A stretch of DNA of 61,712 bases, from the NCBI GenBank assembly GCA_035939775.1, contig DASZFO010000314.1:1-61712 (forward strand), written 5' to 3'. Both the position numbers and the translations under genes were made by a program. The notes under the pieces were generated by a model. It was given only the letters and a program-made list of their open reading frames with translations, did no database searches and had not been told where the DNA came from. This document shows, in pieces, positions 4,722 to 59,848 of this stretch (position 1 is the first letter of the stretch; each line of letters starts with the position of its first letter). The stretch is from Pirellulales bacterium (lineage in GTDB: Bacteria > Planctomycetota > Planctomycetia > Pirellulales > DATAWG01).

Positions 4722-6386
4722 ATGTGGCGGATTCTCATGGCGGCGATCGTCGGCGTGGCGTTTTGCGCGGCGCGGCCCAGCTTGGCGGACGACGATGGCG
4801 ACAAGGACGCCCAGAAGAAGTCGCATGTCGAGAAGAAATCTTCTGACAGGGGTGAGAAGGCTGAGAAAAGTGAAAAGGCTGAGAAGGAAGATGGGAAGAA
4901 ATCCGACGGCGAGAAGAAACACGGCGAGAAGAAAGAGAGCGACAAAACGAAGGGCAAATCGGCAAAGAGCGGCAAGGCCCCGCACCATAAATCACTGCGC
5001 GGCAAGGGGCATGCGGCACGTGCTCGCCACAATCACAAAGGTGGACACGGGCACAAGGGGCGGCATGGCAAGCATGGTCACGCGAATGCAGCGCGCCGCC
5101 ACGGATATCGTGGTCACGGTCGTGCCCATTCAGCTCACGGCGGTCGAGGGCGCGGTTTTGGCGGCCGCGGGCATTTTGGCATGCGCGGCGCGATGCATGG
5201 GCACCAAGGTATGCACGGGCGTCACGGCCGCGGCGGAATGTATCGCGGACGCGGCGGCTGGGCGCATGGTCAGTGGGGCTACCGCAGCGGGCGCGGATTT
5301 GGCGGCGGGCGCGGCGCAATGTATGGGCATTATGGCCGTCACGGAATGCCTGGCGGTCGTGGGCAGCATGGCCGATATGGTCATCGCGGCGGATCCGGCG
5401 GTCGCGGCCCGATGGGATTTAACAATCGTGGATTTGGTGGTTGGGGGCAAGGCGGGCCGGGCGGTCGCTTCGACCAATGGGGCGGCGGTTGGGGCGGACC
5501 CGGCCGTGGTTGGGGCGGCAGTGGCATGGGTGGACCCGGCGGCGGGGGCCGCGGCTTCGGCAATGGGCCGCGCGGATACAGCGGTGGACAGTGGGGCGGA
5601 CCGGGTTTTGGTAGTCGCGGATTCGGAGGACAGCGCTTCGGTGGGCCAGGATTTGGAGGCAATGGGCCGCGCGATTTTGGCGGCGGACCATGGGGCGGAC
5701 CAGGATTTGGAGGGCAGCGCTTCGGCCGTCAGGAATTCGGTGGTCAGCGTGACGGCGGCCAAGGATTCGGTGGCAACGGGCCGCGCGGGTTCGCGGGCGG
5801 ACCGTGGGACGATGACCGTTCCAGTGGGCCGCGATTCGGCGGCGAGGGCGGCGGTGGTCGCGGCTTCGGTAACCAAAGTTTCGGTGGCCGGAACTTCGGT
5901 AGCCAGAGCTTCGGCCAATGGGGTCAATGGAATGGCGCCCGAGGTCAACGCGACGGCGACGGTGGACGTAACGACGACGACGCTCGACCGCAGTTCGGCG
6001 GCCCGCCGCGCGGATTCGGTTTCGGTGGTCCCGGTGGCGGCGATTTTGGCCCCGGTGGGGCAGGCATGAATCGCGACGGATCGGCCGACGGACGTCGCAC
6101 TCCGGCCGCCTTCCGCTTCGGCGGACCGGACGGCCGCGGCGGTCCCTCAGCGGATGGCCCGCGTCGAGGAACCGACGGCCCGAGCGACGACGGCGGTCGC
6201 CCGCCTCGCGGCAGGCCGAATCGAGACAGTGCGGACCGCGGAAATCCAGATCGCGGCGGCCCGGACGGCGCTGGCCGAGGTCGCGGTGGTCCCTCATCGG
6301 ACGGCCCCGGCAATCGCGGCCCGCGCGACGGCGATCGCAGCGATTCGACCAATCCGGTAAAGGTCCTCCTCTCGCTCCTTTTTTGA
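4722..6386 (+). CDS. Secreted Lys/Glu- then Gly/Arg/Phe-rich low-complexity protein
   Basis: This 554-residue protein starts with a signal peptide (MWRILMAAIVGVAFCAARPSLA) preceded by a TAAGGA ribosome binding site. Residues about 25-85 are almost only Lys, Glu, Asp and Ser, and about 90-150 are rich in His, Gly, Lys and Arg. The rest is a long Gly-rich tract with recurring FGG, RGFGG, WGGPG and RFGGP units, ending in Asp/Arg/Pro-rich sequence. No enzymatic domain is visible. The composition resembles RGG/FG-type disordered proteins, so binding of polyanions or metal, matrix formation or phase separation are possible, but nothing in the sequence proves a role. Long open frames on both strands here are by-products of the biased composition. 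A hairpin terminator follows. Confidence 0.7.
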   Translation: MWRILMAAIVGVAFCAARPSLADDDGDKDAQKKSHVEKKSSDRGEKAEKSEKAEKEDGKKSDGEKKHGEKKESDKTKGKSAKSGKAPHHKSLRGKGHAARARHNHKGGHGHKGRHGKHGHANAARRHGYRGHGRAHSAHGGRGRGFGGRGHFGMRGAMHGHQGMHGRHGRGGMYRGRGGWAHGQWGYRSGRGFGGGRGAMYGHYGRHGMPGGRGQHGRYGHRGGSGGRGPMGFNNRGFGGWGQGGPGGRFDQWGGGWGGPGRGWGGSGMGGPGGGGRGFGNGPRGYSGGQWGGPGFGSRGFGGQRFGGPGFGGNGPRDFGGGPWGGPGFGGQRFGRQEFGGQRDGGQGFGGNGPRGFAGGPWDDDRSSGPRFGGEGGGGRGFGNQSFGGRNFGSQSFGQWGQWNGARGQRDGDGGRNDDDARPQFGGPPRGFGFGGPGGGDFGPGGAGMNRDGSADGRRTPAAFRFGGPDGRGGPSADGPRRGTDGPSDDGGRPPRGRPNRDSADRGNPDRGGPDGAGRGRGGPSSDGPGNRGPRDGDRSDSTNPVKVLLSLLF

Positions 6387-34499: not shown

Positions 34500-36476
34500 A
34501 TGAAGTCGGATGAACCCAATTTCGCGGGGCTGCGCGTCGCCGCATTCGAAAGCCGGCGAGCGGAGGAAATGGCTGCCCTCATTTCGCGGATGGGGGGCGC
34601 GCCGTCGATCAGCCCGTCGATGCGCGAAGTGGCGCTGGAGCGCAATCCCGAGGCGATCGATTTTGCCAACCGGCTGCTGACCGGACAGGTCGATGGGATC
34701 ATCTTCATGACGGGCGTCGGCGTGCGGCATCTCATCGGCCAGGTCGAGCGGCACGTCAATCGAAAGCGGTTTCTGGAAGCGATCTCCGACGTGGTCACAA
34801 TCGCTCGCGGCCCGAAGCCGACCGCCGTGCTCAAGGAATTCGGCCTCACTCCGACTCATCGCACCGAGGAGCCGAACACGTGGCGCGAGGTGTTGGCCGT
34901 GATTGACCAGCGCGCGCCGGTAGCCAACCAAACGGTAGCGCTCGTGGAATATGGCCAACCGAATACGAGCCTCGTCGCCGGCTTGGAGGCGCGCGGGGCG
35001 ATCGTCCTCAAGCTCAAGGTCTACCGCTGGGATTTGCCCGAGGACACCGGCCCGCTCGAGAACAACATCCGGGCCATCGCTGACGGTTTGATCGATGTCG
35101 CGCTCTTCACGTCCAGTCATCAGGTGACGAACTTGTTGCTGATGGCCGAGCGGCTGGGGCTGACCGATTCGCTGCGATTCGGCTTGTCGCAAGCGGTGAT
35201 CGCTTCGATCGGTCCCGACACGAGCGAGACGTTGCGGCAATATGGATTTTCCGTCGATCTGGAGCCGGAACATTCCGGCATGGGGCAGTTGGTCGTGGCC
35301 GCGTCGCGCTCGGGCGAACTGCTAACGCGCAAACGCCGCAAGGCGATTTTCAACGTGCCGCTGGCATCTGCGACCGGGCCGGTCGGAAATCCGATTGTCT
35401 CCGAGCCGGGCGTGTCGCTCGCGCCGCGCGGTCAGGGGCAGCCATGGTATGACAGCCCGTTTATGAAGGCCTGCCGACTCGAACCGACCGAACGCACACC
35501 CGTTTGGCTGATGCGTCAGGCCGGGCGCTATCTGCCGGAGTATCGCGCGATCCGCGAGAAGACCTCGTTCCTCGAGCTGTGCAAGAATCCCGCGTTGTGC
35601 GCCGAGGTGATGATCGCGGCGGTGCGGCGGCTCGGCGTGGATGCGGCGATCATCTTTGCCGATCTGCTGCCGATTCTGGAACCGATGGGAATGGAACTGG
35701 AATTCACGCGCGGCGAAGGCCCGGTGATTCACAATCCGGTGCGCGAATCGCGCGACGTCGATCGCGTGCTGGAACTCGATGGCGTGGCATCGCTCGAGTT
35801 CGTGATGGAGGCGGTTCGGCTCACTCGGGCCGGCTTGTCGCCGGAGATTCCGCTGTTGGGCTTCGCCGGAGCGCCGTTCACACTCGCCAGCTACGTGATC
35901 GAAGGAGGAGCCAGCCGCAACTACCTGCATACCAAGACGCTGATGCATCGAGACGCCGGCGCGTGGAGCGCGCTGATGAGCCGGCTGGTGCGAGCGACGA
36001 CACGCTACTTGAATGCCCAAATTGCCGCCGGTGCCCAGGCGGTCCAATTGTTCGACAGTTGGGTCGGCTGCCTCGGTCCGGATGACTACCGGCAGCATGT
36101 CTTGCCGCACACGAAGGCCGTGATCGATGGCATTCAGGCCGGCGTGCCGGTAATCAACTTCGCCACCGGCAACCCAGCCCTCTTGCCGCTGCTCTCAGAG
36201 GCGGGCGGCCAGGTGATCGGCGCCGATTGGCGGATCGAACTCAACGACGCCTGGCGCGCGATCGGCGCGAACAAAGCCATCCAAGGAAATCTCGACCCGG
36301 CGGTGCTCCTGGCCGACCGCAGCGAGATTCGCCGTCGCGCGGAACACGTCCTCCGTCAAGCCGCCGGCCGCCCAGGCCACATCTTCAACCTCGGCCACGG
36401 CGTGCTCCCGCAAACGCCGCCGGATAACGCGATCGCACTCGTCGACGCGGTGCATGAGTTCAGCGCACGGGCGTAA
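34500..36476 (+). CDS. hemDE: Fused uroporphyrinogen-III synthase / uroporphyrinogen decarboxylase (HemD-HemE)
   Basis: This 658-residue protein joins two consecutive steps of tetrapyrrole synthesis. Residues about 1-275 look like uroporphyrinogen-III synthase (LRVAAFESRRAEEMAALISR, GIIFMTGVGVRHLI, DVALFTSSHQVTNLL), which closes and inverts the ring of hydroxymethylbilane. Residues about 305-655 are HemE: PVWLMRQAGRYLPEYR (the invariant active-site segment), FADLLPILEPMGM, GFAGAPFTLASYVIEGG and LFDSWVGCL. HemE decarboxylates uroporphyrinogen to coproporphyrinogen. A linker separates the two. A fusion allows transfer of the unstable intermediate between sites. It is a single gene with no other hem gene in the window. 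Confidence 0.9.
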   Translation: MKSDEPNFAGLRVAAFESRRAEEMAALISRMGGAPSISPSMREVALERNPEAIDFANRLLTGQVDGIIFMTGVGVRHLIGQVERHVNRKRFLEAISDVVTIARGPKPTAVLKEFGLTPTHRTEEPNTWREVLAVIDQRAPVANQTVALVEYGQPNTSLVAGLEARGAIVLKLKVYRWDLPEDTGPLENNIRAIADGLIDVALFTSSHQVTNLLLMAERLGLTDSLRFGLSQAVIASIGPDTSETLRQYGFSVDLEPEHSGMGQLVVAASRSGELLTRKRRKAIFNVPLASATGPVGNPIVSEPGVSLAPRGQGQPWYDSPFMKACRLEPTERTPVWLMRQAGRYLPEYRAIREKTSFLELCKNPALCAEVMIAAVRRLGVDAAIIFADLLPILEPMGMELEFTRGEGPVIHNPVRESRDVDRVLELDGVASLEFVMEAVRLTRAGLSPEIPLLGFAGAPFTLASYVIEGGASRNYLHTKTLMHRDAGAWSALMSRLVRATTRYLNAQIAAGAQAVQLFDSWVGCLGPDDYRQHVLPHTKAVIDGIQAGVPVINFATGNPALLPLLSEAGGQVIGADWRIELNDAWRAIGANKAIQGNLDPAVLLADRSEIRRRAEHVLRQAAGRPGHIFNLGHGVLPQTPPDNAIALVDAVHEFSARA

Positions 36477-42809: not shown

Positions 42810-44996
42810 TTGATTCGAGTCTCCCGTAAGCGATCGCTAAAAATCAAAGCCGTGGTAGCCGTTCAAGCCGCGGCAAGGCCCACGCGCATCCCGAACGATA
42901 ACGGCGCGGTGCCGGGCGTCAACGGCTCGGCGGAAGATTCGTCAGCGCTCGACGAAGAGCATGTCGAGCATTCGCTGAACGGCGTCGCCCCCGGACCTTC
43001 CGGCCACGGCGCCGCGCACGGGCATCGCCGCCGCCGGGCAACTGCCCAATCGATGGCCGCCGATCAGCGCGATATTAGCGTCAGCGAGTTCTTCGCGAAG
43101 AACCGCCATCTGCTGGGCTTCGACAACCCGCGGAAGGCGCTGCTCACCACGGTAAAGGAAGCGGTCGACAATTCGCTCGATGCCTGCGAAGAGGCTGGGA
43201 TTCTGCCTGAGGTTTGGGTTCACATCGAGGCGGCCGGCACGAACTGTTACAAGATCGGCGTCCAGGACAACGGGCCGGGGATACTCAAGAAGCAAATCCC
43301 GCTCATCTTCGGCAAGCTGCTCTACGGCTCGAAATTCCATCGGCTGCGGATGAGCCGCGGCCAGCAGGGGATCGGCATCAGCGCCGCCGGCATGTACGGC
43401 GTGCTGACCACTGGGAAGCCGGTGAAGATCATCTCCAAGATATCCAAGCGCTCCCCGATGCACTACTATGAGATCCAGATCGACACCAAGAAGAACAAGC
43501 CGGAGATCTTGAATGGCCGCGGCGACGGGGTCGATATTCCCTCGGGGGATCCGGGCACCAAGTACATCGCGGCGCACGGCATCGAATGGATTCCCGTCAA
43601 CGATCGCGCGGAAGAGGTCGTCCATGGCACCCGGGTGACGATCGAACTCGAAGGGCGCTTTCAGCACGGCCGCGGCAGCGTCGACGAGTATCTCGAGCAA
43701 ACGGCGATCGCCAATCCGCACGTCCGGCTGCACTACCTCGATCCCGAGGGAGAATTGCGCACGTTCGAGCGCTCGACGAATCATTTGCCGCCGGAGCCGA
43801 AGGAGATCAAGCCGCATCCCTACGGCGTCGAGTTGGGCCGGCTGCTGGCGATGCTCAAGGACGACAAATCCTCGACGCTCACTCAGTTTCTCACGACCGC
43901 GTTCTCTCGAGTTACGCCGGCCGTGGCCAGGAAGCTGTGCGAGACCGCGAAGCTCAGCACCCGGATGAACACGGCCAAAATCGGCCGGCAAGAAGCGCAG
44001 GCCCTCTACGAAGCTATTCAACAGACGCGAATCAGCGCCCCTTCGACCGACTGCATCTCGCCGATCGGCGAGGAGCTGTTGCTCAAAGGGCTGCACCAGG
44101 TTCTGCCGGGCGAGTTCTACGTGGCGGCGACGCGGCCCCCCGCCGTTTATCGCGGCAATCCGTTCGTGATCGAGGCGGCGCTGGCTTACGGCGGCACGCC
44201 GACCGCCCAGCGCGTGCCGCTGGATACACTCCACGACCTGCTCGGCCAAAGCGATGCGCGAACGCTGCGCCAGTTCCTCACCACCACCTTCGCCGGACTC
44301 GGCACGACCGCGGCCGACAAGATTCTCGAAGAGGCGAAGCTGGGCACGCGAACTTCTCCCGGCCGGCTCAAGAAAGCGGAAATCGCTCAGCTTCACGCCG
44401 CGATGCACAGCGTCAATCTCGACGAAGGGCAGACGATGAACGTGCTGCGGTACGCCAACCGCGTGCCGCTGCAATTCCAGCACGCCGGCTGCGCCATCAC
44501 GCAGACTGTCATGTCCACCAATTGGCGAAGCTACGGGCTGAGCCAATCGCGGGGCTCGTTGCCCAGCGGGCCGGTGACGGTGATGGTCCACATGGCCAGC
44601 GTCTGGGTCCCCTTCACTAGCGAATCGAAGGAAGCAATCGCTTCGTATCCGGAGATTCAGAAGGAATTGCGGCTCGCGCTCCAGGCGGTGGGGAGGAAGC
44701 TGGGCATGTATCTCCGCCGCCGGCTGCGAGTGAAGCAAGAAGGAGAGCGGCGGAGCATTTTCCTGCGCTATCTCGGCGAGGTGGCCACCGCGGTGAGCGA
44801 CATCAGCCGCGTGGACCGCGACGACCTCTACAGCAAGCTGCTTTTGGTGGCCAAGAAAAAGACGGCCGACGCCGACGTGGAACTCGACGAGCGCGGCCAC
44901 CCGATCGAAGACGGGGAGGCGCTCGATTTGGGCAAGAATGTGCTGATCGTCGGTCCGGAACCGCTCCCCGATCCGGCGCAACTGCCCGCTAAGTAA
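42810..44996 (+). CDS. top6B: DNA topoisomerase VI subunit B with duplicated H2TH domain
   Basis: This protein of about 728 residues is the GHKL ATPase subunit of topoisomerase VI. It closes an ATP-driven gate while subunit A cleaves DNA. EFFAKNRHLLGFDNPRKALL and EAVDNSLDACEEAG (the N box) start the ATPase, followed by DNGPGI and GQQGIGISAAGMYG. Residues about 351-408 form an H2TH-like domain (TLTQFLTTAFSRVTPAVARK). Residues about 479-537 are a second, similar copy (TLRQFLTTTFAGLGTTAADK). The transducer domain follows. The TTG start at 42810 has GGAG upstream and gives an 80-residue N-terminal extension; the ATG at 43053 is an alternative start. The A subunit follows after 31 bp. Confidence 0.9.
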   Translation: MIRVSRKRSLKIKAVVAVQAAARPTRIPNDNGAVPGVNGSAEDSSALDEEHVEHSLNGVAPGPSGHGAAHGHRRRRATAQSMAADQRDISVSEFFAKNRHLLGFDNPRKALLTTVKEAVDNSLDACEEAGILPEVWVHIEAAGTNCYKIGVQDNGPGILKKQIPLIFGKLLYGSKFHRLRMSRGQQGIGISAAGMYGVLTTGKPVKIISKISKRSPMHYYEIQIDTKKNKPEILNGRGDGVDIPSGDPGTKYIAAHGIEWIPVNDRAEEVVHGTRVTIELEGRFQHGRGSVDEYLEQTAIANPHVRLHYLDPEGELRTFERSTNHLPPEPKEIKPHPYGVELGRLLAMLKDDKSSTLTQFLTTAFSRVTPAVARKLCETAKLSTRMNTAKIGRQEAQALYEAIQQTRISAPSTDCISPIGEELLLKGLHQVLPGEFYVAATRPPAVYRGNPFVIEAALAYGGTPTAQRVPLDTLHDLLGQSDARTLRQFLTTTFAGLGTTAADKILEEAKLGTRTSPGRLKKAEIAQLHAAMHSVNLDEGQTMNVLRYANRVPLQFQHAGCAITQTVMSTNWRSYGLSQSRGSLPSGPVTVMVHMASVWVPFTSESKEAIASYPEIQKELRLALQAVGRKLGMYLRRRLRVKQEGERRSIFLRYLGEVATAVSDISRVDRDDLYSKLLLVAKKKTADADVELDERGHPIEDGEALDLGKNVLIVGPEPLPDPAQLPAK

Positions 44997-45027: not shown

Positions 45028-46176
45028 ATGGCCAATAAATCCGCCAAATCGACTGCAACGGCCACCGCCAAGCGCAAGCTCAACCCGCGCGACAAGAAGA
45101 CACTTGGCGAAATCGTCGGCCTCGCGAACGACGTGGTCACGGCCGCCGACAAGCGCCGCGATCCGCATCTCGATATTCCCGCCCGCAGCCTGTCGAACGT
45201 GAAGTACAACAGGCAGAAGCGGTTCATCGAGATGGGCAGCGCCAAGAACCGCCGGCACCTATTCAATCTTTCGCAAGCCAAAAGTTACATGCAGACGGTG
45301 CTCGTGGCCAGCGGCTGTAAAACGCTCATCGATCAGGACAAGACTACCAGCATCCGAGGTCTGTTTTATCTGCTCAAGCACACGATCGAGGGCACCAAGG
45401 AAGAGACGTTCGCCGATCAGGCCGAGTGCGACCCCGTGATCGAAGACTTGGAGGTGACGCTCAACAGCCTCCGCGAAGAACTGCACGTTTATGCCTCGAA
45501 CCGCGGCGGGATGGTCGGTCCAATCACGCTTAACGACAGCGGAGATGAAATCGACTGCGCGCGGATGGGCTCCGGCGGCTATAGCATTCCCTCGATCTGC
45601 GAGCCCGAAGTGATCCAATTCATCAAGTGCGATGCCAAATTCATCCTGCATGTCGAAAAAGACACCGTCTGGCGACGTTTCAACGAAGACAAATTCTGGC
45701 GCAAATACAACTGCCTGCTGACGCATGGCGGGGGCCAGCCGTCGCGTGGCGTGCGCCGGATGCTTTATCGACTGCACAGCGAACTGAAACTGCCCGTCTA
45801 CTGCCTCTTGGACAATGACCCCTGGGGATACTACATCTACAGCGTCCTCAAGCAAGGCTCGATCAACTTGGCTTACGAATCGAAGCGAATGGCCATCCCG
45901 GACGCGAAATTCCTCGGCCTCCGCTCGATCGACTTCCAGCGTTGCGAACTCTCGCCGAGCGTCAAGATCAGCCTCAACGACACCGACATCAAGCGAGCCA
46001 AGCAGATCGCGGAATACCCCTGGTTCAAGGGGAAAAAACCCTGGCAGAAAGAGATCGAGCTGATGCTCCGCAACGGCTTTAAGCTCGAAGTCGAGGCCCT
46101 GATCTCCAAAGACATCAGCTATGTCACCGAGACCTACGTTCCCGCTCGGTTGGACGAGCAGAACTGGCTGGATTAG
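45028..46176 (+). CDS. top6A: DNA topoisomerase VI subunit A (Spo11-like)
   Basis: This 382-residue protein is the DNA-cleaving subunit. TTSIRGLFYLLKHTIEG near residues 106-122 contains Tyr114, the candidate nucleophile that forms a covalent bond with DNA. KFILHVEKDTVWRR (Toprim Glu) and LLDNDPWGYYIY (Toprim Asp-x-Asp) carry metal-binding residues. The order B then A, 31 bp apart, matches archaeal pairs. Topoisomerase VI is uncommon in bacteria and relaxes or decatenates DNA. It should function as an A2B2 complex with the upstream protein. Confidence 0.9.
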   Translation: MANKSAKSTATATAKRKLNPRDKKTLGEIVGLANDVVTAADKRRDPHLDIPARSLSNVKYNRQKRFIEMGSAKNRRHLFNLSQAKSYMQTVLVASGCKTLIDQDKTTSIRGLFYLLKHTIEGTKEETFADQAECDPVIEDLEVTLNSLREELHVYASNRGGMVGPITLNDSGDEIDCARMGSGGYSIPSICEPEVIQFIKCDAKFILHVEKDTVWRRFNEDKFWRKYNCLLTHGGGQPSRGVRRMLYRLHSELKLPVYCLLDNDPWGYYIYSVLKQGSINLAYESKRMAIPDAKFLGLRSIDFQRCELSPSVKISLNDTDIKRAKQIAEYPWFKGKKPWQKEIELMLRNGFKLEVEALISKDISYVTETYVPARLDEQNWLD

Positions 46177-51005: not shown

Positions 51006-52193
51006 ATGCCCGATTTCATCTTCGCGACCTGTCAGATCGGGGCGGAGCCGGCGCTCAAGGCTGAGGTGGCCCGCGATTGGCCGGCGCTACGGTTCGCCTA
51101 CTCGCGCCCCGGCTTTTTGACTTTCAAGAGCCTATCCGAAAGCAGCCGGGGACTGTCCCCTTTTGTGAAGTCTTCGGAACAAAAGGGGACTGTCCCCCTC
51201 TCCGCAAGCGGTTCTCGGATCGGCTCTAAGTCGCCGGAGGCGTTGCTCGCGGCGAACTTGCGCGACCATGCCGAGACTCCCCTTGCTGCCGGGGTGTTCG
51301 CTCGCGCGAGCGGGTTCTCGCTCGGCAAGGCCGGCAGCGGCACAATCGAGGAGCGGGCGGCAAGCGTGTGGCAATTGGCCGGCCAGAGGCCGTTTCGGCG
51401 GTTGCACGTTTGGCGGCGCGATCTTGTCGGCCCGGACCATCGGGGAAAAATCCACGAGCCGTTCCCGAGCATCGCTGACGTGGAAGCCGCGATTCGACAA
51501 GCGGGTCTGACCGGCGAAGCGTCGCTCGAAGCCTTTGCGCCTGGCGAACCGACTCGCCCTGGCGATCTCGTCCTCGACTGCGTGGTGGTCGAGCCGGACG
51601 AGTGGTGGATCGGCTTTCACGTGGCGCGAAACGTGGCAAGCTGCTGGCAGGGAGGATTGTTCTCGGCGGAATTGCCGCCGGACGCCGTCTCGCGGGCCTG
51701 GCTGAAAATGGAGGAGGCGCTGGTCTGGTCCGGGCTGCCGATCGCGGCGGGCGATCTGTGCGCCGAGATCGGCAGCGCTCCCGGGGGCGCAAGCCAGGCG
51801 CTCCTCGGCCACGGAGCCCACGTGATCGGCATCGATCCGGCCGACATGGATCCGCGGGTGCTCGCCCACCCGGCTTTCGCGCATTGGAAAATGCGCGGGG
51901 CGGACGTGCGGCGGCGCGAATTTCGCAAGGTCCGCTGGCTGATGGCCGACATCAACGTCGCCCCGACTTTCACGCTCGACACCGTCGAAGCGATCGTGAC
52001 CCACGCCGACGTGGACGTGCAGGGGATGCTGCTGACGCTCAAGCTGCTCGATTGGTCGCTCGCCGCGGACATCCCGGCGTATCGCGAGCGGATTCGCTCG
52101 TGGGGTTTCGGCCGCGTCGCCGCGCGGCAGTTGCACCATAATCGCCAGGAGATCTGCGTTTCCGCCCAGAAGGGCCGCTCAAGGAGAAAATAA
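51006..52193 (+). CDS. RlmM-like FtsJ-type rRNA methyltransferase with repeat insert
   Basis: This 395-residue SAM-dependent 2'-O-methyltransferase resembles RlmM, which modifies C2498 of 23S rRNA. The N-terminus (FIFATCQIGAEPALKAEVAR) fits a THUMP-like domain. The catalytic part has WLKMEEALVWSGLPIAAGDL, AEIGSAPGGASQALLGHGAH with the SAM-binding Gly motif, VIGIDPADMDP, and VRWLMADINVAP with the Asp. Residues about 41-74 come from repeat copy 5 ([20 protein letters not shown]), within the N-terminal domain. Its 3' end overlaps the convergent protease gene by 15 bp. Confidence 0.8.
   Translation: MPDFIFATCQIGAEPALKAEVARDWPALRFAYSRPGFLTFKSLSESSRGLSPFVKSSEQKGTVPLSASGSRIGSKSPEALLAANLRDHAETPLAAGVFARASGFSLGKAGSGTIEERAASVWQLAGQRPFRRLHVWRRDLVGPDHRGKIHEPFPSIADVEAAIRQAGLTGEASLEAFAPGEPTRPGDLVLDCVVVEPDEWWIGFHVARNVASCWQGGLFSAELPPDAVSRAWLKMEEALVWSGLPIAAGDLCAEIGSAPGGASQALLGHGAHVIGIDPADMDPRVLAHPAFAHWKMRGADVRRREFRKVRWLMADINVAPTFTLDTVEAIVTHADVDVQGMLLTLKLLDWSLAADIPAYRERIRSWGFGRVAARQLHHNRQEICVSAQKGRSRRK
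51128..51226. repeat. GGGGACTGTCCCC palindromic repeat, copy 5 (inside RlmM-like gene)
   Basis: Arms GAGCCTATCCGA (51128-51139) and TCGGATCGGCTC (51215-51226) enclose two direct GGGGACTGTCCCC. The loop TTTTGTGAAGTCTTCGGAAC is the reverse complement of the loop in copy 6 with one change. The insertion keeps the frame. Confidence 0.9.
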
Positions 52194-55100
52194 ATCCCAG
52201 AGCGACGAGGAATGGCTGCGCGCGAATTCTTCGATGACCAGGTCGTGCAACTGCGCCTGAAGATCGTCCGTGGGCGGCGAGATTGCCGAACGCGTCGATT
52301 TTGTGGCGTTGAACGTGCCAGCCGGCGATAGCACCGCGACAGAGTTTGCGTGAGACGGCAATTGCACCTGATCCTGAACGCCGCCAGTGAGTGGTGTTCC
52401 GCTTGCCGACTCTGAATTTCCCGCAACGAGAGCTGGGGTCAGGGATCGGGCATCAGGCAGCAAGGAAGGTAAAGAAAGCGGAAGCGGCAATGAATGGCTG
52501 GTCGCCGCAGTGTTGACCATTGACGCGGCGCTCGTCGCGGCGGCGGAAAGAGCAACTGTGCCGTGAGACGCTGACCCAGCACCGTTCGCGGTCGTGGCCG
52601 GAGCGCTCGCCGTAGCGAAGCTTGGCGAATTCCCATTTGCCGGTGCCTGACCTGCGACCGCCGGCTCCTGAGTTGCCCCTTGGGCCATAGCTCCCTGATT
52701 CGGCGGTGTCGGGTCGGTCGCCGGTAGGGATTGCAGCAGATTGGCCCGCACGACCGCGCCATCGAGGCCAGTGATCGTGCCATCGCCATTGAGATCGGCG
52801 AGCGGGGAATACGATGTGCTGGCGGTCGTTTGCAACAGGAGGCCGCGCACGACATTGCCGTCGGCGCCGGTCACGGCGCCGTTCTGGTCCACGTCGCCAG
52901 GAAGCAGATTGAAGCGGAAGTTGAAATCTCCCCCCGCCGCGCCGTCGCCCGAAGGAAACTGACTTCCCGGCGAAGCGCCGGTTTCGTTGGTCCACTCGCC
53001 GTCGAGCGCCGTGCCGACCGAGTTGGTCACCGCGGCCGACGGGATGCTCAGCAGGTACTTGTCCAGCGGCAGGGGCGAGGCGAAAGTCCATTGCGCGGTG
53101 TGGGTCGAACTGTCGTAGCTGAATGTGGCCGCGGAGAGCGCCGGCGCCGCCGGCAAGTCGGGCGAGCCCGCGAGCGCCAATCCGGACTGCGCGGCGTTGA
53201 TGGTTACGTCTTGGCTGAACACGACGGACAGCGTCGTAATATTCGACCAAGGCAAAGGGGCCAACTGATTCGACCCGCCGAGCAGGCGATAGCCGAGTTG
53301 CGCCGTCCCCAGCCCGCTCGCGTTCAAATAATTGAGAAAGCCCGAGTTCCAATCGGCGCCGCTGACATAAACGCCCAGCACGTCGGGCGGAGCCACGTCG
53401 ATCACTGTGCTGAGGAAATACTCGCCGCTCGTGGAGTTGCTCCCAAGCACCCGAATTCGGTAAGCGCCCGTCGTCGCCGCGACTTGGCTCAACGATGGGT
53501 TGCCGGTTCCTTGACCGGAAGCGATCAGCGCGTCGGACGGGCTATAAAGCTGTATTTGCGGGGCGAGGTTGTTGACGAATTGGTTGTTGGCGCTTCCCGG
53601 CGTGAAGGTCTGCAACAAAAGTTCATTGCCGGCCGTCAGATTGACCGAATACCAATTCTCCGTCGGCGTGGCGGGGGCCGCGAGAATGTCGCCCAGCACC
53701 CCCTTCGTGCCGCTGATGTTCTGAGCGGTCGCGAAGCTGCCGTTGACCTCGGTGTCGAAGTCGGCGTCGCGATTGACAACCAGGCTATAGGGCGCGCCGG
53801 TCGTGCCGGTCACGACGGCGTAGTAGGTGCCAGCCGCCGGCGCGACGAAGTTATCGATCGCCGAATTGACGTTGCTTCCGCTGCCCGGCGAGATGCCGGT
53901 GGCCAGCGTATTGCCCTGAGAATCCTGGAGTGAGACGCTGACATTGGCGGCTTTTTGCGCGGTGACGGCGAGCGTCGTGGTCTGCCCGGCGGCGAGCGAG
54001 TAGGCGTAGTAATCGGTTACATTCGAGGCCAGGCCGACTCCAATTTCCAGGCTCTTGCCCGTGGCCACAAACGGGCTCGAGGAGGAGTTATACGAGACCA
54101 ACAAACGATTGCTCCCTTGCGTGCCGGCATCCTTGATTCCGACTGTGGCGCTCGCCGCATCGGAATTTGCATCGCCGCTGGTCAGGTTCTTGTAGTTGAA
54201 GATCATCGTGCCGTTGGCGTTCAGGATCGCCTCGAGGGTCACCTGGCCGGTGTAATTGCCGGCGTAGAAGCTGGCGTTGTTCCACTGAACGATCAACCGT
54301 TGGCTGCTGCCTGAACCTTGGACCTGCCAATAAACGGCCGATTGCGGAATACTGTTGAAAAAAATCAGGTCGTCCCACAGTGGGGCGATGGCTGCCTGGC
54401 TCGGGACGGTGGTCAGGTCCGTGTTGAGATAGTTGCTGGTGCCGCCGCCGAAAGTGAGCAACCCATTGCTGCTCACGTAGATCGAACTGTAGGTGGTGTT
54501 ATAGAGCTTGAACTGAAATCCATTGAGGTTTCTGAGATGCACGAAGGCGTCGTCCGTGCCCGCCAGGATCGCCGTGCCAGTGCCGCTGATGTCCACGAAC
54601 TGGGGCGCGATCGAGATACCGCTGTACCCAAAACCGTCGGGACCGATCGAACCAGCGAGCGTTCCCAGGGCGGCGCCGCGCTGCGCCGTCCCATTCAATG
54701 CGACAAAGCTCGGATCGAGATTCTGGGCGGTTGCGAGCGAGTGGTTGCTTGCCCCGCCGACCGTCGCGGTCGAGAGCGCGGCGTTGAGATAAACCTGAAT
54801 CGAATAGCTTCCCGTCGTGCCGCTCAATCCGTTGACGGTGAAGGTGTACGTGCTGGTCGCGCCGATGGCGACTGTTTGCAAGACGGCCGGTCCGCCCGCG
54901 GAAGCCGAGGTCGCCGACGTCGCGACGCCCGTTCCGCTCAGATTGAGCTGCGCCTGCAAGCCGCTGGACGGTGTGACGAGGATCGTCAGCGCCTGCCCGG
55001 CGGCAATCGGAAGCGTGTACGTATCCGTAGTGCCGGAAGCGATCGAGCCGGACGTGCTATTCTGATAAATAAGCGACCCGGCGGGGGTGACCGAAGCCAG

Positions 55101-57029
55101 CGGCGTGGGGAACGGGACGGGGCCCTTGTTCAAGAGCAGGCTGCCCGAATAAGCCGCTCCCGGATTCCCGAACGCGTCGGTCACGGCGCCGGCCGCCATG
55201 TTGATCGTCAAAGTTCCGGCGCTATTGATCCCACTCAAGCCATACGTGACGGTTTGCGAATCGACGAGCGTGAAGCCGCTGACCGATCCTTGGCTGAGCG
55301 ACAGATTGCTCGCGCTGATGCTGGATGACGCGTAGGCCTCGTTGAAATGCAGCGTCAACGCCGGGAGCGGCAGCGTGAGGGTCGAACCATTGGCCGGCGT
55401 CGTCGAGGTGACGGCGATCCGCACGACGTCGTAGCGAAACGAAGCGCTGAAGGCCGCCACGGGGGAGCCGTCCGTTTGCCGGGTGATTGCGCCGGCGGCG
55501 ATCGACATCGTTTGCAGTCCCTGCGTCGTGACGGGGCTGCTATTGTAATGAAATGTGATCGTCGTGGAGTTGGTCAGCGTGAACGAATCCGCGGCAATTC
55601 CGTTAACGGCCAGGTCGCTGGCCTGAACGCTGTTGGGATCGTAAGCGTTGGCAAGCGCGATGGTGAAATCGGTCGGCGCGGTGCTGACCGTCGAGCCGTT
55701 GGCGGGCGTGCTGGACGCGACGGCAAACGCGCCGACCAGGTCGCTCACGATCGACGGGGCGATGGGCGTGCCGCGGCCAGTGACCAGATCGTAGCCGGCG
55801 CCCGCGGCAAAACCGTTGTTGCCGAGGATGACGTCGTTGAAATCGGCAGCCGATATCGAATACAGCTTCGGCAGAGTTTGCGTTTTTCCGTCGAGCGCCG
55901 TCATGTTTGCCGAGACACGGGCCTGGTCGGCGATGGCAATCAGCGCCGCCCACGACGGCGAGGAGAAGCTGGTGCCGCCGACTTGAAGCCAGGGGGATGA
56001 AGTGCCGAAATCCCAGGAGTCGAAAAGCGGCACGCCGCTGTTCGGATCGGCGTCGAACGAGACGTCGGGAGCTGTGCGCATGGTGCTGCTGAATTGCGTC
56101 ACGACGCCATTTTGATACGCCGGCTGCGATTCGACCGTGCTCACCCCGCCGCCGCTGCCGCTCCAGCCGCTTTCGCCGATTCCGCCGTCGCCCGATTGGG
56201 GAACGCGATTTCCGTTGGCGTCGACCGAAAGCGTTGTTCCGCCGACTGCCACGACATTTGGCGAGTACGCCGGGTAACCCGCCGGCGCGCCGTTGTCGCC
56301 CGTTGAGGCCAGAAAGGTCACTCCCGTGTGGCCGGAGGGCGTGGTGAAGATGCTGTCGTCGGCGGTCTCACTGGAGGTCTCACCGCCGCCGAAGCTCATC
56401 GAGACGACGGCCACGCCGGGCACGCTGCGGGCATAGTTGACCGCATGCAAAAACAAGTCCGAGTCGGATGTGCTATTGGCCTCGACCAGCAGGATATTGG
56501 CCCCCGGCGCCAGAGCATGCGACCATTCGACATCCAGGGCGGTTTCGATTTCCCAAGTGTTGTTTCCCGGACTCGAGGGATCGGGCGTTGGATAGTTCGT
56601 GCTGCCGTCCTGGGCGACTTTGCTGAAGCTGGGCGGATCGGGCAGATTGTATCCGTGGGCCGTCCAGTAGGCGTCAAAATTGTGCAGATCGCTGGCGATC
56701 GTCGGATCATCGTAGGCGTCGATGATCGCGATCGTTTGGCCGGCGCCGTCGCCGATCAGATCGAAGCCATAAGCGTGGCGAATCTGCGCGGGGGTGAGGC
56801 CGGTCGGGGCGGACGTGGAAAACGGCGTCGCGCTGCCGTCATGGCGATGGACGACGTAGGTCGGGTGCACGAGCGGCGCGCCGGGCGCGCTTAAGACGCG
56901 GCGCGATTCAAGCTGCTCAAAGGCGGAACGGCGTCGCCGCGGCGGCGCGGCCTTGCGCGGCCGGCGGCCGCGCAGGTTTTGCTTGAGCAAATCACACGGT
57001 GGATGGTGTCCAGGGTCGGGCGACGCCAT
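52179..57029 (-). CDS. Giant secreted S53 (sedolisin) protease with Ig-like, PPC-like and dockerin domains
   Basis: This protein of about 1616 residues begins with a basic region and FEQLESRRVLSA, the planctomycete extracellular N-terminal motif. The S53 peptidase has Glu162 and Asp166 (WEIETALDVEW), Asp245 (STGDNGAP) and Ser354 (GGTSFSSPSWAAL). NDVILGNNGFAAGAGYDLV and TGRGTP follow, with the Ca-binding Asp. Two SbsA-type Ig-like repeats (STPANGSTVS, STTPANGSTL) and several PPC-like beta domains come next. A dockerin-like pair is near the end (GDVDQNGAVTGADGNVVRG and ADLNGDGTITGLDGAVVR), then a Ser/Thr/Ala-rich tail. The ATG at 57029 is preferred over a TTG at 57128. It should act outside the cell on proteins, at acidic pH if it follows its family. 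Confidence 0.85.
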   Translation of the reverse strand: MASPDPGHHPPCDLLKQNLRGRRPRKAAPPRRRRSAFEQLESRRVLSAPGAPLVHPTYVVHRHDGSATPFSTSAPTGLTPAQIRHAYGFDLIGDGAGQTIAIIDAYDDPTIASDLHNFDAYWTAHGYNLPDPPSFSKVAQDGSTNYPTPDPSSPGNNTWEIETALDVEWSHALAPGANILLVEANSTSDSDLFLHAVNYARSVPGVAVVSMSFGGGETSSETADDSIFTTPSGHTGVTFLASTGDNGAPAGYPAYSPNVVAVGGTTLSVDANGNRVPQSGDGGIGESGWSGSGGGVSTVESQPAYQNGVVTQFSSTMRTAPDVSFDADPNSGVPLFDSWDFGTSSPWLQVGGTSFSSPSWAALIAIADQARVSANMTALDGKTQTLPKLYSISAADFNDVILGNNGFAAGAGYDLVTGRGTPIAPSIVSDLVGAFAVASSTPANGSTVSTAPTDFTIALANAYDPNSVQASDLAVNGIAADSFTLTNSTTITFHYNSSPVTTQGLQTMSIAAGAITRQTDGSPVAAFSASFRYDVVRIAVTSTTPANGSTLTLPLPALTLHFNEAYASSSISASNLSLSQGSVSGFTLVDSQTVTYGLSGINSAGTLTINMAAGAVTDAFGNPGAAYSGSLLLNKGPVPFPTPLASVTPAGSLIYQNSTSGSIASGTTDTYTLPIAAGQALTILVTPSSGLQAQLNLSGTGVATSATSASAGGPAVLQTVAIGATSTYTFTVNGLSGTTGSYSIQVYLNAALSTATVGGASNHSLATAQNLDPSFVALNGTAQRGAALGTLAGSIGPDGFGYSGISIAPQFVDISGTGTAILAGTDDAFVHLRNLNGFQFKLYNTTYSSIYVSSNGLLTFGGGTSNYLNTDLTTVPSQAAIAPLWDDLIFFNSIPQSAVYWQVQGSGSSQRLIVQWNNASFYAGNYTGQVTLEAILNANGTMIFNYKNLTSGDANSDAASATVGIKDAGTQGSNRLLVSYNSSSSPFVATGKSLEIGVGLASNVTDYYAYSLAAGQTTTLAVTAQKAANVSVSLQDSQGNTLATGISPGSGSNVNSAIDNFVAPAAGTYYAVVTGTTGAPYSLVVNRDADFDTEVNGSFATAQNISGTKGVLGDILAAPATPTENWYSVNLTAGNELLLQTFTPGSANNQFVNNLAPQIQLYSPSDALIASGQGTGNPSLSQVAATTGAYRIRVLGSNSTSGEYFLSTVIDVAPPDVLGVYVSGADWNSGFLNYLNASGLGTAQLGYRLLGGSNQLAPLPWSNITTLSVVFSQDVTINAAQSGLALAGSPDLPAAPALSAATFSYDSSTHTAQWTFASPLPLDKYLLSIPSAAVTNSVGTALDGEWTNETGASPGSQFPSGDGAAGGDFNFRFNLLPGDVDQNGAVTGADGNVVRGLLLQTTASTSYSPLADLNGDGTITGLDGAVVRANLLQSLPATDPTPPNQGAMAQGATQEPAVAGQAPANGNSPSFATASAPATTANGAGSASHGTVALSAAATSAASMVNTAATSHSLPLPLSLPSLLPDARSLTPALVAGNSESASGTPLTGGVQDQVQLPSHANSVAVLSPAGTFNATKSTRSAISPPTDDLQAQLHDLVIEEFARSHSSSLWDLFSP

Positions 57030-57259
57030 TACGAATGAAGAGCTTGTGAAGAGTGCGAAGTCCGGCACCGGCAAAGCGGGCGAATGCTGCGCCAGCACAA
57101 CCCGTTCGCGGATTGCATCCCAAGTCAACCGAAGCGAAGTCTTCAGCTCGCGCGACGCCCCTGAAATGCCGCCAAGCCGCGACGAGAAGGCCGAAAAACC
57201 GCTGAATTGAACCTAACCAAAAGCGGCGCGGGCGTCAATTGCGATGATCGCTCGGCGGC

Positions 57260-59848
57260 TCACTCTTGTGCAACCAGCTCGTCCAGCTTTTTCCGGAGGA
57301 CCTCAAAATCGCTGTCCTTGATCCGGTCGTAGTCGGTGCCCATCAGCTCTTTGAGCTTCGGGAAGCCGCCCACGCGGAGGAATTCGCGGACCTGGTTTTG
57401 CGTGAACGAGCTGGACTTGGTGGCCAGCAGGGTGTCGGCCATCTTTGCGTAAGCGGCGTCATTTCCGGCGAGGCAGGCTTTGAGCATCGGGTCGCCTCCC
57501 ATCCCCTTCCACGACAGCAGACTTGTCAGGGCGTTGTACGTGTCGAACTTGATTTCGGCCTGTGAAGTGATCGGCTTTGTCTTCAAATCAGCCGCCATTT
57601 TCTTGTCGGCAGCGTTGGAGTCGACGATATAGGGATCGATGCCGTTAAGCTGCTTCAAAAGCGTGTTGAAGTGAATCACCGCGGCCGTCGCAGTATCATC
57701 CGGTCCCTTGACACTTTGGAGAATGTCGATCTTCTCTTGGATCGAGAGGGGCGGATTGTTGGCCATCACGCGCAGCTTGAGCAGGGCGGCGTCGCCGCCC
57801 AGCTTGTCGTATTCCTTGATGTTGTCTACGGCCGCCTTGATGGCTTTGTCGAGTTCGACCTTGTTGGTGGCGGCCATGATGTCGCTGAATCCGGAAGCGT
57901 AGATCTGCGAAATCTGATAGGGCGTCAGCTCCGGGGCCGCGGCCTTGAGGAAATGGCCCGACTTGCGAACCAATTCGAAGCTCTCGTCGTCGACCTTTCC
58001 AGCCATTTCTGGCGCTTCCAAGACGCATTTCTCATAGTCGGCCTTCATGTCGGCGGCGATCTTGTCGGGATCGAGCTTGGCCAAGGCCTGCTGTTGCTTG
58101 GGCGAGAACTTTTTCTGGGCCATTGGCAATTGCATCAAGAAGCTCTGGCTGTCTTCGATTTGAGGATTCTCGGGATCGTACGGCGCCGTGGCCGTCATCG
58201 AGGCGCAGCCGCGGCGGAAGGCCTCGGGCGTCGGCAAGGATTGGCCGGCGTCGATCGGGCAAAGCCGCGTCTGACCCTTCTGGGTCGAAGGCGGATCGCG
58301 CAACAGCAGATTCTCAGTGTGGCGGTCGCCGTTGAGCGTGAGAAAATCCATGATCGCCATGTTTTCGGCATCTTCTTCGTTGATCGACTCGATTCGCTCC
58401 TTCACTTCCTCAGTCGTGAGATAGGTTTGCTTCTTCTCGCCCGGCTTCTTCGGGGGACTAAAGAACTGCTTGGCGTCCGGCGGGTCGCCCACCTTCACCG
58501 CCTCTTGCAACGAGCCGACGCGGACTTTGTCTTTCGACTTGGTTCCCTGAGCGAAGCTATCGTCCTCCAGGCGCGCCACGGATGTCTTCGGCACTCCGAA
58601 ATCGAGGCCTAATTCCTGCGAGAGCCGATCGCTCGCGGAGCTGAGCAGCGCCTCGCGGGGCGCGCCGCCTCCGGGGGGCCAGGCGTCTGAAAATTGGCTC
58701 TCGCCGTTCACCGGCTTGAGGATAAACTTCGGCTTGCCGTCGGGTCCGTTGATGAAGAACGAATCGGAATTCCCCTTGGACGACGGCGGCTTGCAGCTTC
58801 CCGGCATGCTGAGCAACACCTGGGCGACTTCGTCGGGAGGCGGATTCTGTCCCTTGGGCAGTAACAGTCCATCGACGACCCCTTGCATCTTGGTGGTCAA
58901 TTCGATAATCGTGCGGTCGATTCGCGTCTTATTCTCGGAACCGAGGTAGGGGAATTTGAGAAACTTTTCGAGTTCCTTCACGATGCCAATGCTCGCTTCC
59001 TGGGCCGGCATGGCTTTGGCTTGCTCGCAGAGCTTTTGGATTTCCTTGTTCTCGGCCTCGACGAGCCGCTGCACGGATTGGGCCGCTTTGATCGCGGCGT
59101 CGGCTTGCTTCACGCGCTCTTTGCCGTCGGAGGTCTTGGGATCCTTGTGGCTATCGCGATAAGCCGTCGCGACGGTGATCAAATCGAGCGTCGACTTCGT
59201 GAAATCGGTGTACGGTCCCGTGCCGCCGCGCAGGGCTTTCTGCGCGGCTTCGACGGCGCGCATGGCATCGACGACCCCCTGGAATTCAGATTTGTTCGCC
59301 TTCGTTTCCTGGGCGATCCGATCGACCTTGTCGGTGGAGAACTGCGCTTCGATGCCATTGAGGAAATCCTCGGTCCTCAGCCGGTCGCTCGCCTGGGAAA
59401 ACGCCCCGGCCTTCTGCGTCTGCTGCGTTTTGCGCGCCCCGACTTGCAGCTCGAATTTCTCCGCCGCGATCTTCTTCCGCACGCGCGCCAAGAGGGCCAA
59501 TTCCTTTTTCTTGCCGGGCGGGTCGAGGTTCGAGTCGCCACGGATTTGCAGCGTCACGGTGTCGGTGCGCTTGGAAATAACGTCGTAGCCGGCGCCGCGT
59601 TTGTCGGGCGTGAGCTTCTTCACGTCGCCGAGCACTTGGTCCCAGCCGGGCTCGGTCAAATACGGGGGCTTCGGCGGGGGACCCTTCGGCTTTTTCTCCG
59701 AGTTCTTCCGCTCCGCGTATTTCTTATTCTCGTCCTTGAGCCTCTTGGCCATCCGGGGATCGAGTTTGAAATACTTCTCGTTCCAGTCCTCGATCTTCTT
59801 CGTTTCGACTTTTGGGACTTCGGGCTGTTTTTTTTCGACGGTGGACAT
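57260..59848 (-). CDS. PI3/PI4-kinase-like protein
   Basis: This 862-residue protein has a Lys/Pro-rich N-terminus, a helical region to about residue 340, then a kinase-like domain. [11 protein letters not shown] (Lys378) with [19 protein letters not shown] matches the N-lobe of PI4-kinase type II-like proteins, where FKP and an RExA helix occur. [15 protein letters not shown] (507-513 core) matches the DRHxxN catalytic loop, and [10 protein letters not shown] (Asp533) the metal-binding D-x-G. A C-terminal helical domain follows. There is no signal peptide. Substrate may be a lipid or a protein; family members in other bacteria act as effectors or as unusual protein kinases. The partner gene upstream on the same strand is separated by an 88-bp gap with a palindrome. 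Confidence 0.65.

Follow-up and report, generated by a model that had tools for sequence, protein, structure and literature searches.

A second H2TH domain lies within the transducer of topoisomerase VI subunit B throughout the Pirellulales

The subject of this study is subunit B of DNA topoisomerase VI (Top6B) encoded on a contig of a Pirellulales bacterium (assembly GCA_035939775.1, contig DASZFO010000314.1, 61,712 nucleotides, hereafter the window). This protein contains two H2TH domains: the original one (copy 1), and a second one (copy 2) that forms an 82-residue insert in the first beta-hairpin of the transducer. Copy 2 is homologous to copy 1, has the same fold, occupies the same site throughout the order and is under selective constraint. 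It is most likely an added contact in the central cavity of the enzyme, for transported DNA or for a partner subunit. The features concerned are the following.

42810 to 44996, plus strand: Top6B, 728 residues (NCBIfam NF003218, 679.5 bits; TIGR01052, 507 bits; Methanosarcina mazei Top6B in the PDB, E = 4e-140)
43074 to 43814, plus strand: GHKL ATPase domain with the motifs KEAVDN, DNGPGI and GQQGIGIS (Pfam HATPase_c; motifs invariant or nearly so in two alignments)
43815 to 44033, plus strand: copy 1 of the H2TH domain, protein residues 336-408 (alignment to the H2TH of M. mazei and Sulfolobus shibatae; model helices)
44034 to 44195, plus strand: first part of the transducer, ending in ..ALAYGG (PDB alignment with archaeal Top6B as far as GG)
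44196 to 44441, plus strand: copy 2 of the H2TH domain, the 82-residue insert in the transducer beta-hairpin, residues 463-544 (internal repeat, hhalign, PDB profile and fold)
44442 to 44807, plus strand: second part of the transducer and stalk helix, with VLRYANR..., NWRSYG and PFTSESKEA (TIGR01052 positions 364-485 at 44430-44807; model helix 539-591)
45028 to 46176, plus strand: topoisomerase VI subunit A, Top6A (Pfam TOP6A-Spo11_Toprim, E = 6e-59, TP6A_N and Topo_VI_alpha; NCBIfam NF003333, 556 bits)

The Top6B scores exceed the NCBIfam equivalog cut-offs, and PFTSESKEA, the conserved lysine loop of the transducer, is among the invariant or nearly invariant Top6B motifs in the alignments. 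The start of the open reading frame, a TTG, was assigned mechanically, and the conserved region begins after the first ~75 residues; model helices and the residue names of copy 2 are given below in a trimmed numbering, to which 75 is added to obtain protein numbering. Top6A, 31 bp downstream of Top6B, supplies the winged-helix and Toprim domains that topoisomerase VI requires of its partner subunit. The B subunit is complete, and by domain content the pair is a type IIB topoisomerase VI, with ATP-dependent strand passage through 2-nt staggered cuts as its predicted activity.

The original prediction, made from the letters of the window, held that residues 351-408 and 479-537 are alike and represent a duplicated H2TH domain. 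Both segments do lie in the 728-residue frame, and a 69-residue gapless BLOSUM62 alignment of the two copies scored 94, while shuffled sequences gave a mean of 25.1 (standard deviation 4.7, maximum 51, n = 2000) and copy 2 reached at most 28 against the remainder of Top6B. Across 64 Pirellulales rows, the z-score between the copies ranged from 5.5 to 20.7 (median 12.3). The similarity is thus far above chance and the presence of two H2TH domains is confirmed, with the adjustment that the full second domain is slightly larger than the segment first delimited.

The two copies are not side by side, as the wording of a tandem implied. Copy 2 begins 54 residues past the end of copy 1 and is nested inside the transducer, where it splits the Top6B family match at profile positions 363|364. 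Past the first transducer strand (..ALAYGG) the match to archaeal Top6B is lost until VLRYANR, with 82 extra residues between. Archaeal Top6B (M. mazei, PDB 2Q2E and 9O8P; S. shibatae, 2ZBK) has the GHKL, H2TH, transducer and stalk elements in the same order as the window protein, which is 38-46% identical to M. mazei Top6B in structural alignments and retains the basic contacts of the first H2TH. The archaeal proteins differ in having a loop of 8-9 residues where the window protein has its second H2TH, and M. mazei Top6B further differs by an additional C-terminal Ig fold.

Structure models, all of single chains, agreed with the sequence comparison. In the full-length AlphaFold2 model of the window Top6B (predicted local distance difference test score, pLDDT, 86.8; mostly 86-95 in the insert), the four helices of copy 1 (267-276, 282-289, 295-304 and 318-330) recur in copy 2 (396-405, 411-418, 424-433 and 447-459) with the same lengths and at a constant offset of 129. 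Modelled alone (pLDDT 82.6), the insert found residues 235-315 of M. mazei Top6B as its top PDB match (Foldseek root-mean-square deviation 0.9 Å over 73 residues, TM score 0.85; VIA Z 15.1), a segment for which the published H2TH limits are 235-311 (PMC13040014). The H2TH of the DNA glycosylases Fpg/MutM came next (VIA Z up to 9.8), together with ribosomal protein uS13 in Foldseek; Fpg/MutM shares the fold with the insert, but its zinc finger and glycosylase parts are not present in the window Top6B. By fold and by sequence homology to known H2TH domains, copy 2 is therefore a member of the H2TH superfamily, although its nucleic-acid binding is putative and its near-neutral charge calls for caution.

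There is very little doubt in our minds that copy 2 arose by duplication of the H2TH of Top6B itself. In profile-profile comparison (hhalign, profiles built from about 60 relatives), copy 2 matched copy 1 with 98.7% probability (E = 1.6e-15, 73 gapless columns), and the PDB sequences that a profile of the insert matched best were archaeal Top6B H2TH domains (E = 3.5e-8). Capture from another H2TH protein, such as S13, Fpg or NFACT, could account for the weak Pfam matches of the insert to NFACT_N, Ribosomal_S13 and the Fpg H2TH, and an H2TH tree over 73 columns leaves the root of copy 2 unplaced, so that the duplication cannot be dated from it. However, the S13 profile match (E = 1.6e-4) falls far behind that to the Top6B H2TH, and the top matches in both PDB sequence and fold are archaeal Top6B, which makes capture highly improbable.

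The distribution of the insert was followed in the set of genomes compared here. Top6B was above the cut-off in 35 of 40 Pirellulales genomes, with matches that break at the same profile point, and the insert measured 82 residues in every complete Pirellulales Top6B read directly, with 84 in one; named carriers include Lacipirellula limnantheis and Aeoliella straminimaris. In 111 other bacterial and archaeal Top6B the same loop has 5-40 residues, so the duplication is not common to all Top6B proteins; here and in the H2TH fold of the second segment, the original prediction withstood both of the refuting conditions stated with it. Four proteins, from a planctomycete family (f71) and a genome outside the order (G044), have 46-71 residues between the strand anchor motifs, flanking strand counted, but no H2TH; when inspected by eye as possible H2TH domains, these longer loops proved to be low-complexity, mostly acidic linkers. 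Copy 2 is hence a trait of the order, neither general to Top6B nor specific to the genome of the window. One record titled Deltaproteobacteria (L072) falls inside the Pirellulales Top6B clade and may be a mislabelled bin or a lateral transfer. In the H2TH tree, copy 2 forms a single clade (support 100/97) on a long stem, which points to one early duplication, before the radiation of the Pirellulales, with the copy planted in the first transducer hairpin loop.

A helical addition at this place had been seen before. In a model of Pirellula staleyi topoisomerase VI subunit B, McKie et al. (2024, PMC11302465) described a "unique alpha-helical bundle" that extends into the central cavity and that they also reported, as a lateral acquisition, from the dinoflagellate Cladocopium goreaui; they did not name it as an H2TH or as a duplication. 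Since P. staleyi belongs to the same order and the helical addition is at the transducer, the bundle is almost certainly the second H2TH reported here. New with respect to that work are its identification as an H2TH copy, its order-wide occurrence and an analogue in another order, and hence it is not unique; no report of either H2TH identification was found in the open-licence literature searched.

The analogue occurs in an order whose taxon is taken from record titles (Myxococcota or Deltaproteobacteria). At the same transducer loop, loci L119 (insert at 5080-5343) and L122, which bear the titles Myxococcota and Deltaproteobacteria, have inserts of 88 and 87 residues, and further loci are L148, L149, L182-L189 and L191-L198. 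Top6B was present in 12 of the 13 genomes of this order, with an insert of 84-88 residues wherever the sequence was complete. One such insert scored 33.1 bits against the S13 profile PF00416 (Pfam cut-off 31). When eight of these genomes were scanned in six frames, the true S13 gene scored first and the Top6B insert next, above the cut-off in three (40.1, 38.1 and 31.2 bits) and at 20-29 bits in five; the matches covered only profile positions 2-65 of 128, and the C-terminal tail of S13 was not matched in the eight genomes. With hhalign, these inserts matched the S13 of their own hosts (97.6%, E = 3e-12, 35% identity, 66 gapless columns) better than the hosts' own Top6B H2TH (75%, E = 3e-6), the reverse of the preference of the Pirellulales insert. 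Judging from these profile matches, the Myxococcota-type insert is a captured S13 N-terminal domain and not an S13.

Although the N-terminal H2TH of uS13 has the same fold, the Pirellulales insert is far nearer to the H2TH of Top6B. The window insert reached 16.4 bits against PF00416, below the cut-off, and no second PF00416 match was found in genomes G000 or G017; an S13 origin of the Pirellulales insert was rejected on this weak similarity. A shared origin of the two inserts was likewise unsupported, as hhalign gave 10% between them and the Top6B core tree places their carriers in separate clades, with insert-less rows nearest to each and between them. Locus L084 carries an 82-residue insert, and the core tree requires two gains. 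Separate clades and different best profile sources together indicate that H2TH folds entered the transducer hairpin twice, and the repeat of such an addition at the same spot in an unrelated order suggests that it is useful. That the hairpin twice gained an H2TH, once by internal duplication and once by S13 capture, and thereby a second DNA-sensing element in the cavity of the transported segment (T-segment), is a tentative proposal that we place a little short of even.

Selection also bears on the value of the insert. The ratio of nonsynonymous to synonymous substitution rates (dN/dS) was 0.38 for copy 2, 0.37 for copy 1 and 0.15 for the core, meaning that copy 2 is under constraint equal to that of the original domain. 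Its invariant or nearly invariant residues include R409, R412, G421, G423, R439 and Q466, and it has a GxG hairpin. A tolerated domain in an unconstrained loop, retained by chance, would fit with the variable length of this loop, where most other Top6B have linkers of 5-40 residues and a few have longer ones of low complexity. Yet a length fixed at 82 across the order, a dN/dS equal to copy 1's, copy-2-specific invariant residues and the insertion of the same fold twice make such retention improbable.

The H2TH domain of M. mazei is in contact with the distal gate segment (G-segment), which it bends, and links cleavage to the use of ATP (PMC5922973, PMC13040014). The original H2TH of the Pirellulales enzyme would retain this bending, and the second, in the central cavity, would serve as an additional contact with either the T-segment or the partner subunit. 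It may thus help to hold or sense the captured crossing and couple closure of the ATP gate to strand passage. The original prediction had proposed DNA binding or gate-to-cleavage communication for the extra copy, and such a function is plausible, if putative. We regard contact with DNA by copy 2 as an even proposition, and the explanation as a whole, a single duplication followed by a cavity-contact role, as modestly favoured.

Several observations weigh against this explanation. Copy 2 lacks the basic character of copy 1 (mean net charges -0.6 and +4.7, respectively), and the Myxococcota insert is near neutral too (+0.1). In copy 1 the equivalents of K268 and K308 are basic (Lys or Arg) in 61 of 63 and 63 of 63 rows, respectively, whereas copy 2 has an invariant Gly at the first position and, in the window, an Asn at the second; the near-neutral charge and the loss of these DNA-contact lysines speak against copy 2 as a simple DNA binder. 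Pirellulales retain a basic crossing-sensor (KGRR) loop (consensus RGR; HGR in the window), so that no replacement sensor is needed, which ruled out the insert as a substitute for that loop. The placement in the cavity is taken from the published P. staleyi model. Finally, the insert does not track the loss of topoisomerase IV: insert-less carriers of topoisomerase VI, G044 among them, also have one GyrA/ParC gene, and a tie between the two was rejected. A parallel drawn to a loop in Mycobacterium tuberculosis GyrB could not be supported and was dropped.

The same charge and the same two lost lysines would suit a protein-protein element, in which the second H2TH packs on the partner B subunit or on Top6A and stabilizes the closed clamp with no DNA contact. 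So would its location: the transducer of M. mazei shows a correlation between inter-subunit spacing and competence for cleavage (PMC13040014). However, the parents of the two independent inserts, each an H2TH fold, bind nucleic acids, and copy 2 keeps the GxG hairpin typical of nucleic-acid binding by H2TH domains. Such a protein-protein role seems to us rather unlikely, and an added cavity contact remains our preferred reading.

The enzyme that carries the insert seems to take the place of topoisomerase IV as these bacteria's second type II topoisomerase; topoisomerase IV was not found in planctomycetes with topoisomerase VI (McKie et al. 2024, PMC11302465). Within the class Planctomycetia, all 18 sampled genomes with Top6B had one GyrA/ParC gene and all 61 without it had two or more, counts that come from related genomes and are not independent events. 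The single gene of the window genome lies in two contig-end pieces. Among the contrasting cases, G059, the one Pirellulales genome of the sample lacking Top6B, has two GyrA/ParC genes, and G044, which is outside the order and has Top6B, has one. This contrast in copy number speaks for topoisomerase VI in the role of second type II enzyme.

Elsewhere in the window, a single open reading frame at 34500-36476 encodes a HemD-HemE fusion, with HEM4 (uroporphyrinogen-III synthase) ahead of URO-D. An 862-residue frame at 57260-59848 has a weak PI3/PI4-kinase match, under the cut-off, as its sole Pfam match, and a 1649-residue frame on the minus strand (52179-57128) carries dockerin type I, Ig-like and PPC-type domains.

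The H2TH identification accounts for a helical bundle previously described without an identity, in bacteria that apparently use topoisomerase VI in place of topoisomerase IV. Together, the second H2TH of the Pirellulales and its repeat from a ribosomal source form a pair of natural experiments on the cross-talk between ATP-gate closure, T-segment capture and cleavage.
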